This document shows, piece by piece, positions 22,566 to 27,215 of a stretch of 29,683 nt of DNA (position 1 is the first letter of the stretch; each line of letters opens with the position of its first letter). This DNA comes from a virus. The translations under genes were made by a program, and so were the position numbers. The notes under the pieces were generated by a model that searched no databases, was not told where the DNA came from, and saw only the letters and a program-made list of their open reading frames with translations. The stretch is from IMG/VR virus record IMGVR_UViG_3300010233_000188, positions 1 through 29,683 of that record; one strand, written 5' to 3'.

Positions 22566-23099
22566 ATGGCTCGTGTTCGTCGCAGCCCGGAAGAAAAGGA
22601 TCATATCTTGCGTCTAGTCATCGATAATCCTGACAAGAGCTATGCTGAGATCGGCAAAATGGTCGGCATAACGGGCAACTACGTTTCTCAGATAGTGTTT
22701 CACAGCGATCATCGTGGCCTCCGCACCCAAGTGCGTGTTAGAAGAGTTCCCGCAAATCGAGACACAGTTGTGCAATACGTGGCTGCCCACCCCGAGAAAA
22801 CCTACGAGATGTGTGCCCAGGAATTGGACGTTTCCCGCTACATGGTTATGAAGATTATGCGAAACAGTAGTCTAAACGGGAAACGTAGACAGCAGTCTGG
22901 TGGTCATGCGCTGGCGAGACGGACGCGGAAACATCATCGGCAGTCGGATCTACAGTTTCAGTGGGAGCAGCGCCTAGCGAGTGAGAACTTAAGCATGGGG
23001 CGGGGCACTCGTAATTGGCTATCTTACGGGCAGGACTATACTGACAGGCAATTGAGACACCGCACACCAACATTAGACGACTATGAAGGGGAAACATGA
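22566..23099 (+). CDS. DNA-binding protein with two duplicated helix-turn-helix units
   Basis: The 177-residue product contains two HTH-type units that look like an internal duplication: ILRLVIDNPDKSYAEIGKMV followed by GITGNYVSQIV (residues 14-44), and TVVQYVAAHPEKTYEMCAQE followed by LDVSRYMVMKIM (67-98). A basic linker GKRRQQSGGHALARRTRKHHR and a C-terminal segment with NWLSYGQDY follow. Tandem HTHs of this type occur in transposase N-termini, terminase small subunits and regulators. With no small terminase elsewhere in the window, that role cannot be excluded, but the position after the holin candidates and before the transcription-related genes suggests a regulator. It starts three bases after the previous stop. 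Confidence 0.7.
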   Translation: MARVRRSPEEKDHILRLVIDNPDKSYAEIGKMVGITGNYVSQIVFHSDHRGLRTQVRVRRVPANRDTVVQYVAAHPEKTYEMCAQELDVSRYMVMKIMRNSSLNGKRRQQSGGHALARRTRKHHRQSDLQFQWEQRLASENLSMGRGTRNWLSYGQDYTDRQLRHRTPTLDDYEGET

Positions 23100-23859: not shown

Positions 23860-24447
23860 ATGATATTCACTTTCGGATCTCCCAAATTATTACAATCTAT
23901 CCAAGGTTCTCCTTGGTACATGCTGGAATATCTTCCCGAAAGTGATCCAGTGGCAATCATAAAACGTCTTCTTAGACAAATTCCAAAATCCTTCCGTGGT
24001 CAGGGGGTTGAACTGTTTTGCGCATTCAAGGAACGAGACCTGGATGTGTGTGAGATGCTCACTGGACCCTTCCTTTACATGCGAAGCACACACATGATTG
24101 ATGTAGCAAGAATCAGCCTGAAAGTCAGGGGATTACAGGGAACACTAAACGCTGGTGATGAGATGGGAAGTCAAAATGCTCTTCCAGTGGATGACACATT
24201 TGTGCAGTCGCTAATCTTGCAAAGCAAGAAATTCCATGAAGACCGATCCCGTGGTATTGGGGGGGGGAGCTTTGTCCGGATTATGTCGGGAGATTATGCC
24301 TATTTTTGTGGGACTGTTTTATCGCTAGATCCCCCGGTAGTGGAATTAAAATTGCGGAGCAAGAGAGTTACTGTCACAACACAGATAGACAACCTGCTGT
24401 GCTTGGATCATGTCGCCAGAAGAGAATATTTTTATGATAGAAACTGA
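23860..24447 (+). CDS. NusG-like transcription factor (NGN plus KOW)
   Basis: The 195-residue protein has the size and domain order of bacterial NusG. An N-terminal NGN-like part (residues ~18-95) runs from SPWYMLEYLPESDP to TGPFLYMRS and VRGLQG, matching the NusG W-v ... GY-fv ... v-gv-g pattern. A C-terminal KOW-like part (137-179) reads SFVRIMSGDYAYFCGTVLSL, then VVELKLRSKRVTV. NusG binds RNA polymerase through NGN and recruits partners through KOW. A nine-G run (24259-24267) encodes the Gly linker between the two. It overlaps the sigma-region-4-like gene. Role inferred: elongation or antitermination on phage genes using host RNA polymerase. Confidence 0.65.
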   Translation: MIFTFGSPKLLQSIQGSPWYMLEYLPESDPVAIIKRLLRQIPKSFRGQGVELFCAFKERDLDVCEMLTGPFLYMRSTHMIDVARISLKVRGLQGTLNAGDEMGSQNALPVDDTFVQSLILQSKKFHEDRSRGIGGGSFVRIMSGDYAYFCGTVLSLDPPVVELKLRSKRVTVTTQIDNLLCLDHVARREYFYDRN

Positions 24448-25129
24448 TTGGATGGATCGCGTTTCCTACGGACAGGATCCAGACAAAGCAACGTTGGGAG
24501 ATATCCTTGTCTCAGTTGAGACGCAGGATCCCGGGACTACGGAGAACGGGTTCTTGGCATACATCAAGGAAAACCCTGGCCGAGTGCTAGAGTGTCTTAA
24601 ATCCCTGCCACCCTTGGATCAAGATCTGATCTTGTCATATTACTGGCTGCATCGGAGTCAATATGCATGTGCTGCTATGTTTGGCGAAGCTCAATCAAAA
24701 TGCAGCAAGCGGTTGAAATCTGGTGTGGAAGTTGTGTGCCACCGCATACTGTTTGGGCCACCAACAAGAAAGAAATTGGAAGAGATTTTGAAGATTACAC
24801 AAAAAACAAAGATCAGCGGCTACCCGGCTGCGGAAATCCTGATCGAATTTGCCCAATGTGGATCTTATCGGAAGATGGAAAAGTATCATATCACCCGGCC
24901 CCAGATCAAAAGATTCATATGGCAAGTGGCGGAACGGATAGAGAAGAGATGCAACAGCACTGAAAATCGTGCTCTAATAGCGTGGCTGTTGGGGTTGTTG
25001 CAACGCGCTGCCAAGCAGAAGCATTGGGGAACACGCGTGGTCGAGCATCCCGATTATTTGGGAGACTTTACACTGCGTATTGAAGATATAGATGCCGAGC
25101 AAGTGTTCCCAGTTGAAGCAAGTTACTGA
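24434..25129 (+). CDS. Sigma-70 region 3.2/4-like protein
   Basis: I start at ATG 24434 (AGAAGAGA eight bases upstream); ATG 24410 in frame is the alternative. The 231-residue product opens with SYGQDPDKATLGDILVSVET, similar to the 'tLgdll-d' linker between sigma regions 3 and 4, then VLECLKSLPPLDQDLILSYY and an HTH-like stretch to KRLKSGVEVV (residues ~50-101), which follows the region 4 pattern 'l--Lp---r-vl-l-y------iA---g-s---v------'. The C-terminal ~125 residues are helical and basic, without a recognised domain. It has no region 2, but a region-2-like protein is encoded 175 bases downstream. It may bind a -35-like element or the RNA polymerase flap. Confidence 0.6.
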   Translation: MIETDWMDRVSYGQDPDKATLGDILVSVETQDPGTTENGFLAYIKENPGRVLECLKSLPPLDQDLILSYYWLHRSQYACAAMFGEAQSKCSKRLKSGVEVVCHRILFGPPTRKKLEEILKITQKTKISGYPAAEILIEFAQCGSYRKMEKYHITRPQIKRFIWQVAERIEKRCNSTENRALIAWLLGLLQRAAKQKHWGTRVVEHPDYLGDFTLRIEDIDAEQVFPVEASY

Positions 25130-25191
25130 GGACACCCACCGGGACTGGTCGGTGTTGCTGGCAACCCGTAGCAAATGGTTGGGGGAACACG

Positions 25192-25317
25192 ATGAGAGTG
25201 CTGGGGCACATGATGCTGTGCCAGGAACAAAGCAAGATTGATAAGGAAAAAGAACATTTTGATCTCCTGAAAGATATTACGGTGACCGGAGAAGGAACGG
25301 CTAATGTACACATGTGA
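25192..25317 (+). CDS. Possible small protein between the two sigma-like genes (41 aa)
   Basis: ATG 25192 follows a GGGGG run by about seven bases and the frame runs to a stop that overlaps the start of the next gene by 14 bases. The product starts MRVLGHMMLCQEQSK and is helical and charged (KEKEHFDLLKDITV). The overlap suggests translational coupling, but the length is near the noise level. The 60 bases upstream contain two small adjacent inverted repeats (25137-25154 and 25154-25165) without a T run. No family recognised. Confidence 0.45.
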   Translation: MRVLGHMMLCQEQSKIDKEKEHFDLLKDITVTGEGTANVHM

Positions 25318-26119
25318 ACAATTCGTGGATAAATTTTTAGCCGTTGCTCGTAACGTGGCATGGAACAACACTCGTGTTTACACATTAACTGATCACGACC
25401 ATGAAGACCTACTTTCCGAGTTGCGCTATCGTGTTGTCCGTTGGTATTACCGTTATCCGAATCATGTAGGAAAAGAATCGGATGCCTGCCTTGGTTCAAT
25501 GATCAAAATACATTTGAACCACAAAGCACAAGAGTACTGCAGAACTCGTTTAAAACATCATTTTATTCCCTGTATTCGGCTGGATCATGCTAGTAATACG
25601 AATCAGAATGACCATGAGTTACCTGAGATAGAAGATCCTCGTCAATTAAAAGAGTTGTTGTCTGCTGAGAACAACTGGATTTGGAGCATCATAAAGCATC
25701 TGGATAAAGAGGATCAGGATCAGCTTGTGGAATACATGCAAGGTGGATTTAAGACCGAATACATTCATGTCGTGCTGCGAAGATTCAAACGAGTTATGCG
25801 ATGCATAAAAGAGGGAAGACCAATTCCTGCCGTTTGGAAGAGGCACAAGAATGATCCTCCGCGACCTCCAAGGAAACCCAGGGTGCACCACAAACTGAGC
25901 AAGCCGATTGATTGGGAAGTGAAGAAATGGGACAACAGCACATTGACTCCTGTTGTGCTTGATGCTCTAAAGAGGCACAACAACCAATGGGACATAGCAA
26001 AAGAAATTGGAGCGAGACCAAACTCTGTAGGGCCAACTCTCCAAAGACTTCGGGATCAGGGACGAGTTGAGCACCTGGGGATTGATAATTGGGTGCTTGT
26101 TAAAGACCAGCAGGGATAG
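25304..26119 (+). CDS. Sigma-70 region 2-like protein with C-terminal winged helix
   Basis: GGAGAAGGA lies eight bases before ATG 25304. In the 271-residue product, residues ~5-95 follow the sigma region 2 pattern: FVDKFLAVARNVAW, then DHEDLLSELRYRVVRWYYRY ('DL-qe--l-v----y'), then an ACLGSMIKIHLNHKAQEYCR stretch ('f--yl---i-n---d--r'). A second helical block (about 125-170) could stand for a degenerate region 3/4. After a Pro/Arg-rich basic linker (~178-195), residues ~213-265 form a winged-helix-like unit (LDALKRHNNQWDIAKEIGAR, then LQRLRDQGRVEHLG). It is separate from the region-4-like gene just upstream, so the two could form a two-part sigma factor. It converges with the minus-strand operon. 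Confidence 0.6.
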   Translation: MYTCEQFVDKFLAVARNVAWNNTRVYTLTDHDHEDLLSELRYRVVRWYYRYPNHVGKESDACLGSMIKIHLNHKAQEYCRTRLKHHFIPCIRLDHASNTNQNDHELPEIEDPRQLKELLSAENNWIWSIIKHLDKEDQDQLVEYMQGGFKTEYIHVVLRRFKRVMRCIKEGRPIPAVWKRHKNDPPRPPRKPRVHHKLSKPIDWEVKKWDNSTLTPVVLDALKRHNNQWDIAKEIGARPNSVGPTLQRLRDQGRVEHLGIDNWVLVKDQQG

Positions 26120-26229
26120 GATGCGGATAGCATCTTGTGAATGTATAGGCGCTCTTCAGAGATCACCTGGGATTTCATATCGTCTAATTTGTTGCAAATC
26201 ATATCGACTTGTTCATCAGTCATGTTCAT
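26056..26229 (-). CDS. Second gene of the minus-strand pair (57 aa)
   Basis: On the minus strand a GGAGGAG (26236-26242) sits six bases before the ATG whose first base is 26229. The start overlaps the stop of the upstream minus-strand gene as ATGA. The N-terminal two thirds (MNMTDEQVDMICNKLDDMKS ... SEERLYIHKM) is a charged helical pair. The C-terminal part crosses the 3' end of the sigma-like gene (64-base tail-to-tail overlap) and looks less natural. The excellent ribosome binding site and coupling support it as real. Function unknown. Confidence 0.55.
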   Translation of the reverse strand: MNMTDEQVDMICNKLDDMKSQVISEERLYIHKMLSASYPCWSLTSTQLSIPRCSTRP

Positions 26230-26579
26230 GCTGCTCTCCTCCAATGATAATCAGAAACATGTTCGTTGTTAACGGTCCAAGAGTATTCTTCGGAGTTTCC
26301 TTCCAAAATAAGTTTCTCCACAAAACCCAGAAATTTTACTTCCGCTGACCAGTCATCTTCATCTACCCCCTCTTTAGAAACAACATCTGTGACGAGGGTC
26401 TCGAAAATAGTTACAGTTGGCAACTGGGTGGCATGTAGTGGATGAAAAGACTCAACAGTGCGTTTTGTTAAACATCCTAATTTGTTCAACTCCAAGCATC
26501 TTTCGAAAACATCGCCAGCGGGGTCTCCATAGAAGTTATCAAAGCGGATTTCGATCTTTGCTGCGGGTTCTTGTGTCAT
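26226..26579 (-). CDS. First gene of the minus-strand pair, unknown protein (117 aa)
   Basis: Read on the minus strand, AGGAGA (26585-26590) lies five bases before the ATG (first base 26579). The product is 117 residues, acidic, and starts MTQEPAAKIEIRFDNFYGDP, with a mid segment LPTVTIFETLVTDVVSKEG and a C-terminal VKFLGFVEKLILEGNSEEYS. It has no HTH, membrane segment or recognised motif. It and the 57-residue gene after it are the only minus-strand genes supported in the window, and they stand opposite the end of the sigma-like gene. Such lone reversed pairs often hold early, regulatory or accessory (moron) genes; no specific function is claimed. Confidence 0.7.
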   Translation of the reverse strand: MTQEPAAKIEIRFDNFYGDPAGDVFERCLELNKLGCLTKRTVESFHPLHATQLPTVTIFETLVTDVVSKEGVDEDDWSAEVKFLGFVEKLILEGNSEEYSWTVNNEHVSDYHWRRAA

Positions 26580-26633: not shown

Positions 26634-26678
26634 ACCACCTCCTGTTGTGGGAATCTCACCCGCAGTCCAGGAGGTGGT
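26634..26678. promoter_or_regulatory. Long hairpin in the divergent intergenic region
   Basis: ACCACCTCCTG (26634-26644) is perfectly complementary to CAGGAGGTGGT (26668-26678). Inside, TGTGGG (26646-26651) pairs with CCCGCA (26659-26664) with one G-U pair, leaving a 7-base loop, so about 17 bp can form with a small internal bulge. On the + strand no T run follows. On the minus strand the sequence after it is TTTGCGTTTTAATTCTTTT, so it could terminate leftward transcription or act as leader or operator for the minus-strand operon. The right arm contains AGGAGG without a nearby start. Confidence 0.6.
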
Positions 26679-26736
26679 GTTCTACAAGAAGTAATTGTGG
26701 AATACTGGCGAGGATCAGGATCGGCAATTAGTTTAA

Positions 26737-26765
26737 TTAGGAACTTTTGCGTGTCATCATATAAG
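26737..26765 (+). promoter_or_regulatory. Weak sigma-70-type promoter candidate for the replication operon
   Basis: TATAAG (26760-26765, 5 of 6 to the -10 consensus) lies 17 bases after TTAGGA (26737-26742, about 3 of 6 to the -35 consensus). The surrounding 26725-26790 stretch is AT-rich. It is 43 bases upstream of the HTH gene start at 26808, where a promoter is expected because the upstream genes point the other way. The match is weak and unproven. Confidence 0.35.
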
Positions 26766-26807
26766 ACAAAATTAGAAAACAAGTATCAGATAGGAGGAGG
26801 CTGTAAA

Positions 26808-27215
26808 ATGAGGACTTTTAACCAGTACCGTAAAAAATTGATGGGATTGATAATTGCCGATGTAATATCTCAACGGCACTTAACTCTTAAGCAGATTGCT
26901 GCAATCCATGAGGTCAGCATCTCAACTGTAAACGCTTACATGAAAAGCTGTAAGATTAGTCGAGGCAAGGGCAAACGCCCAATTAAATTGGCTGAACGAA
27001 AGAAATCAGTAATTGAACAATACGTGGACATGTCGCCGGAGGAACGGCGGATAGAGATGGAGACGCGTTGTCCACTACCTGGTGACCTGAGACCAGCAGC
27101 ACGAGTGGAGATGACGACCGAAGAGCGCGTCGCTGCGTTTAAAGCGGGCAATCCAAAGCGGGATGATAGCAAGACAATCAAACCCGGTCAATTTCCTGTG
27201 GATGGTGGGGAATGA
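26808..27215 (+). CDS. Helix-turn-helix protein at the head of the replication operon (135 aa)
   Basis: AGGAGGAGG (26792-26800) lies seven bases before ATG 26808, the strongest ribosome binding site in the region; the open frame upstream to 26571 crosses the regulatory region and is not credible. Residues ~25-46 form an HTH (LTLKQIAAIHEVSISTVNAY) of the MarR/resolvase-like 'k-iA--~-vs-stV--y' type. The rest is basic then acidic, with MSPEERRIEMETRCP and MTTEERVAAFKAGNP segments. It is probably a small DNA-binding regulator or replication accessory protein. ATGA overlap with the next gene. Confidence 0.72.
   Translation: MRTFNQYRKKLMGLIIADVISQRHLTLKQIAAIHEVSISTVNAYMKSCKISRGKGKRPIKLAERKKSVIEQYVDMSPEERRIEMETRCPLPGDLRPAARVEMTTEERVAAFKAGNPKRDDSKTIKPGQFPVDGGE

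Follow-up and report, generated by a model that had tools for sequence, protein, structure and literature searches.

A candidate phage gene set for redirecting host RNA polymerase, encoding NusG-like, sigma-region-4/Q21-like and sigma-like proteins

The stretch of DNA analysed here (the window) is a complete IMG/VR virus record of 29,683 bases and codes for a terminase, a portal and an HK97-type capsid protein. The nearest phage to these structural genes was Tunturiibacter phage Tunturi_3 (capsid 56%, portal 46% and terminase 32% identity), a 97.6 kb podovirus of Acidobacteriota (PMC11924767), from which we infer that the window is probably part of a larger phage genome (~90–100 kb) with an acidobacterial host. 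Three + strand open reading frames were found where the original prediction had placed them, in the order NusG-like, region-4-like and sigma-like, with the second gene overlapping the first and with a small reading frame preceding the third:

23860..24447, + strand, NusG/Spt5-like protein of 195 aa, with an NGN-like N-terminal domain (~15–110) and a KOW domain (~130–180)
24410..25129, + strand, free-standing sigma-region-4/Q21-like protein of 239 aa (Sigma70_r4_2, TIGR02937, AF2 model)
25192..25317, + strand, small open reading frame of 41 aa (open reading frame list, sequence), its last 14 bases shared with the start of the sigma-like gene
25304..26119, + strand, sigma-like protein of 271 aa (TIGR02937, NF009170, phrog_1740, winged HTH in the AF2 model)

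Translation of the second gene more probably begins at the ATG at 24434, which is accompanied by an AGAAGAG ribosome site and gives a product of 231 aa; the profile match begins there too. Judging by the overlap, the region-4-like gene is likely to be translationally coupled to the NusG-like gene, and the 41-aa reading frame, a putative gene, may be coupled in the same manner to the sigma-like gene. Directly after the + strand cassette lies a 117-aa open reading frame on the − strand (26226–26579), so the sigma-like gene may be the last of its transcription unit. Searches for a shared promoter motif in intergenic DNA, and for consensus promoters near the cassette, returned nothing exceeding chance. 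The stretch of genome around the cassette is rich in HTH genes. One of these, ~0.8 kb upstream of the three genes (22566–23099), encodes a 177-aa tandem HTH protein that matches Pfam Sigma70_r4 in two stretches and, at 29.1 bits, exceeds the cut-off of 24.1; another (26658–27215) encodes an HTH protein that weakly matches families of sigma region 4 and of the terminase small subunit.

Domain matches of the window's own three proteins were all under curated cut-offs. As a lone query, the 195-aa protein matched nothing in Pfam or PHROGs. Its homologs in jumbo phages shared 29–37% identity with it and included gp25 of Tunturi_5 (32%, 4e-20), the others being located in IMG/VR jumbo phage contigs; a scan of genome contigs with this family gave no match. 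Searched against PDB, the family profile retrieved nearly exclusively NusG, Spt5 and L24 KOW chains, the best match being 1m1g (E = 0.0022), collinear over the end of the NGN and the KOW domain, and the KOW domain expected of a NusG family member was thereby located. One homolog (L013) matched TIGR00922 nusG at 1.7e-4 (under cut-off) across the second half of the NGN and the KOW domain (positions 60–152), the first part of the NGN being without a match, and also matched UpxY at 6e-4. The NusG-like identity put forward in the original prediction is upheld by the nusG match of this homolog and by the NusG structures found with the family profile, and there is a strong sequence-based case that the 195-aa protein is a divergent member of the NusG family. 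A C-terminal extension of ~150–250 aa, carried by the jumbo-phage homologs, is missing from the window protein.

In the 239-aa protein, the region-4 fold occupies residues 49–117, more helices follow up to ~201, and a C-terminal LG-F motif is conserved. Matches to sigma models were confined to residues 56–106 and comprised Pfam Sigma70_r4_2 (E = 0.0049, residues 58–103) and NCBIfam TIGR02937 sigma70-ECF (0.0074, aligned to the region-4 part of the model), under curated cut-offs in both libraries (PF08281, 16.9 vs 25.7 bits; TIGR02937, 15.9 vs 42.9 bits). An AlphaFold model built from six natural sequences was confident over ~46–201, with a pLDDT of ~80 in the core, and its residues 49–117 aligned with sigma region 4 chains at Z 6–9.8 and an rmsd of 1.2–2.9 Å over 59–70 residues. 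Sigma region 4 chains accounted for nearly all of the best 35 matches listed in the fold search, with non-sigma HTH proteins placed lower (KorA 6, DeoR 5), and region 4 proteins of the phage sigma-70 type were numerous in a search of BFVD, albeit with weak E-values. The model thus displays the helical HTH fold of region 4, and its similarity to solved sigma domains bears out the sigma region 4 assignment made earlier; on this modelled structure, we regard a sigma-4-type domain as firmly predicted. The segment LGDILVSVET, proposed as a region 3.2 linker, falls in a stretch of the model with pLDDT <50.

The family of the 239-aa protein displays a second affinity. PF06530, the Q21 antiterminator family, matched 17/19 members (E ≤ 1, best 1e-5), and Sigma70_r4_2 matched 11/19 (best 2.6e-5); the window member matched the latter and not the former. 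Lambda Q and Q21 possess an HTH similar to sigma region 4, and their site of action is the flap or its vicinity (PMC7171158). No Q21-type structure appeared among the listed fold matches of the 239-aa model, which leaves room for a Q21 fold. With this Q21 affinity, a role of the family in elongation is suggested as much as one in initiation.

In one IMG/VR contig of the jumbo-phage clade (3300044801_000168; L156:235-2007), the region-4-like homolog is split inside its HTH, between LLSK and TQNT, by an intein of 340-odd residues with a LAGLIDADG-type motif, the closest solved relatives of which are inteins of DnaB, the replicative helicase (match 7.8e-17). Inteins typically occupy conserved sites of important proteins, and the position of this one exactly within the region-4 HTH is therefore a sign of a highly conserved site.

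The 271-aa protein consists of a region-2-like part (~4–95), a helical, apparently shortened region-4-like part (~104–172), a basic proline-rich linker and a winged HTH (210–268). Its sigma E-values are to be read as suggestive only, because, although sigma models matched 0/6 shuffles in a control, an unrelated family matched one of the shuffles at 9.5e-4: the single NCBIfam match was sigma70-ECF TIGR02937 (4e-4 with the whole protein, under cut-off; 0.0073 with residues 1–200, that is, minus the winged helix, where residues 4–151 aligned to profile positions 3–136), phrog_1740 (sigma factor) matched residues 21–144 at 0.013, and the fragment 95–185 matched the sigma model NF009170 at 0.054. 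The TIGR02937 alignment either ran through residue 151 or fell on the C-terminal HTH. Examined by eye, EDLLSELRYRVVRWYYRYP and ACLGSMIKIHLNHKAQEYCRTRLKHH fit the ECF region 2 pattern, and residues 124–172 look like a shortened region 4. A single-sequence AF2 model left the N-terminal 200 residues without confidence (pLDDT <50 over most of 1–110) and rendered the region-4-like segment as three, not four, helices at low confidence; the winged helix was confidently modelled, and a fold search with this model was informative for the winged helix only. Of the earlier description of this protein as sigma region 2 with an extra winged helix, the region-2-like match and the winged helix both hold, but the protein appears not to be region-2-only, as sigma models extend through residues 104–159 as a region-4-like segment. 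We hold the region 2 assignment with moderate confidence.

Relatives of the 271-aa protein were absent from the phages, viral contigs, genome contigs and 50 capsid relatives searched, as well as from Tunturi_5, Tunturi_3 and the jumbo records found by then; matches on plasmids were to winged-helix domains only. Tunturi_5 (PP885688) encodes a homolog of the 239-aa protein, gp346 (26% identity), and a further protein, gp3, the family of which resembles region 2 with an HTH added at the C-terminus. Only sigma models matched several members of the gp3 family (NCBIfam TIGR02937, 5/20), and because a search of PDB with the family profile gave no sigma match, the sigma identity of gp3 is drawn from weak NCBIfam matches only. 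Homology between the 271-aa protein and gp3 was not significant by hhalign (2/100 shuffles scored higher). The same blocks of the two proteins were aligned in 2/3 MAFFT modes, and the link between them is one of architecture only, given that the 271-aa protein is without found relatives.

The NusG-like, region-4-like and gp3 families were all present in 8/8 examined records of at least 200 kb (Tunturi_5 at 309 kb, with IMG/VR records of 456, 211, 332, 463, 317, 238 and 221 kb), a co-occurrence that is conditional, since two of the records are very close to each other and every record came from a search with one of these families. Genes for the region-4-like and gp3 proteins were 10–20 kb apart in 7/8 of these genomes, and the NusG-like gene was usually far from both. 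Because the pair recurs across a clade of large phages, the association of NusG-like and region-4-like genes is not an accident of the contig. The three genes of the window were carried by 0/50 capsid-related contigs, many of them nearly full length, in searches with three queries and no positive control; a repeat on 19 larger capsid-related records included the window for two queries, and both of these profiles contain the window sequence. Of the three genes, for which the original prediction proposed a check of co-occurrence in related phages, the NusG-like and region-4-like genes were found together in the large genomes, no relative of the 271-aa protein was found in the jumbo records available by then, and none of the three was found in the capsid relatives. 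With its NusG-like and region-4-like families in every large genome examined and in 0/50 capsid relatives, the cassette appears to be a module that this phage has in common with jumbo phages, here joined into one block on a Tunturi_3-like structural backbone.

Two further genes of Tunturi_5 deserve comment. The gene for gp346 (PP885688.1:301753-302487; L001:5944-6678), a member of the region-4/Q21-like family, is annotated as 'exonuclease', which is likely a misannotation; family membership suggests a transcription factor instead. On the − strand, gp211 (L008:1918-2616) is a canonical sigma (Sigma70_r2 2.3e-11, region 4 1.5e-5), and Tunturi_5 therefore has a second, ordinary sigma beside gp3.

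The sigma-like gene, the sigma-4/Q21-like gene and the NusG paralog each belong to known kinds. We infer both a joint action and a host target, and do so with somewhat more confidence than doubt: the three genes would form a set redirecting host RNA polymerase at initiation and in early elongation. In this scheme, the 271-aa protein would serve as a very divergent ECF-like sigma, with region 2 binding core polymerase and opening phage promoters, and either its own C-terminal HTH or the partner protein would read upstream DNA. The 239-aa protein would be a separate DNA-binding and flap-binding factor of sigma-4/Q21 type, placed where region 4 would sit, and could either aid promoter recognition or join the polymerase just after initiation and render it termination-resistant. 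The NusG-like protein would displace host NusG on the elongating enzyme, and would keep the polymerase processive and prevent phage operons from being silenced by way of Rho or NusG. In agreement with the original prediction, no RNA polymerase gene is visible in the window, which probably covers only part of the phage genome, and none is annotated in Tunturi_5; this fits dependence on the host polymerase.

A tentative alternative, which we consider possible and clearly less probable, treats the 239-aa protein as a late antiterminator of Q21 type whose HTH is sigma-4-like, paired with the NusG-like protein, and the 271-aa protein as a separate sigma or regulator. The PF06530 matches throughout most of the family, the resemblance of the lambda Q and Q21 HTH to sigma region 4 and the presence of homologous NusG-like and region-4-like genes in all eight large genomes speak for such a pair, whereas the window member itself matches Sigma70_r4_2 and not PF06530, with no match above cut-off, Q21-type structures are absent from the listed fold matches, and the 239-aa protein is longer than Q21. 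An antiterminator paired with a NusG-like protein would suit the family data slightly better than a split sigma.

Sigma activity split over two proteins, the core of the original prediction, lacks support in the form proposed. Under that proposal, the 271-aa protein supplies region 2 and the 239-aa protein region 4, neither working alone, as in SigO/RsoA, with a dedicated NusG-like partner. The genes are adjacent, a region-4 fold is modelled in one product and a region-2-like match lies in its neighbour, and the shortened appearance of the region-4-like segment in the 271-aa protein (three helices rather than four, in a low-confidence model) would also agree with a division of labour. However, a region 2 subunit of the SigO/RsoA kind would be without a downstream DNA-reading domain of its own, and in the 271-aa protein a region-4-like stretch is followed by a distinct winged HTH that may read promoter DNA; the 239-aa protein has ~120 extra residues, and its family resembles Q21 antiterminators. 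In jumbo phages, moreover, the region-4-like homolog coexists with gp3, a candidate sigma that itself ends in an HTH, so it is not evident that the free-standing region-4-like protein makes up for a lost half. Because the 271-aa protein appears not to be region-2-only and the jumbo candidate sigma has its own HTH, we do not class the pair as a two-subunit sigma and consider that reading unlikely. Its fuller version is unlikelier still: a two-subunit sigma (region 2 plus winged helix in one protein, region 4 in the other) would be joined genetically and physically to a NusG-type factor, polymerase would be handed from phage promoters into phage-specific elongation, and the ancestral counterpart would lie in jumbo phages of Acidobacteriota. 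Least likely of all is that unrelated HTH regulators and a NusG paralog are chance neighbours in an HTH-rich stretch, as the HTH genes nearby (22566–23099, over the Pfam Sigma70_r4 cut-off, and 26658–27215) and the non-adjacent NusG-like gene of jumbo phages might suggest, but sigma-type matches are consistent across several libraries, and NusG-like and region-4-like genes occur jointly in every large genome examined and in 0/50 capsid relatives.

Phages usually alter host transcription at initiation, by means of sigma factors, or at elongation, by means of antiterminators. If the preferred reading of a host polymerase takeover set is true, a conserved set that combines both and includes a phage NusG paralog would serve as a compact model of the handover of polymerase from initiation to elongation, and since Tunturi_5 and its host are in culture, the question is open to experiment. 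A full-text literature search found no paper describing a phage set of NusG-like, region-4-like and sigma-like genes, and the main text of the Tunturi paper (PMC11924767) makes no mention of sigma, transcription or NusG.

Among known systems, SigO/RsoA of B. subtilis is alike in having adjacent genes and sigma-4-like and sigma-2-like proteins as separate polypeptides. Unlike that pair, the window has a sigma-2-like protein that continues into a region-4-like segment and a winged HTH, a sigma-4-like protein with extra residues and Q21 affinity, and an attached NusG-like gene. The late sigma pair gp55/gp33 of T4 likewise involves more than one sigma-related phage protein in redirecting host polymerase, but no sequence relation to the window proteins was found; gp33 is not known to have the sequence of a region 4, and T4 late transcription uses a sliding clamp instead of a partner of NusG type. 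Q21-family antiterminators (PF06530; PMC7171158) share the sigma-region-4-like HTH, and their profile matches most members of the region-4-like family, whereas the 239-aa protein, unmatched by PF06530, is longer and has extra C-terminal helices and the LG-F motif. Tunturi_5 possesses homologs of the first two genes (gp25 and gp346) and a protein annotated as a sigma factor in an equivalent role (gp3), although the three are not adjacent and gp3 is without detectable sequence similarity to the 271-aa protein. The NusG/Spt5 family, with its specialised paralogs RfaH, UpxY and LoaP, has the same NGN-like and KOW layout, consistent with the TIGR00922 and UpxY matches of the one homolog; in contrast to it, the window protein is phage-encoded and very divergent, and its jumbo-phage homologs bear a long extra C-terminal domain.
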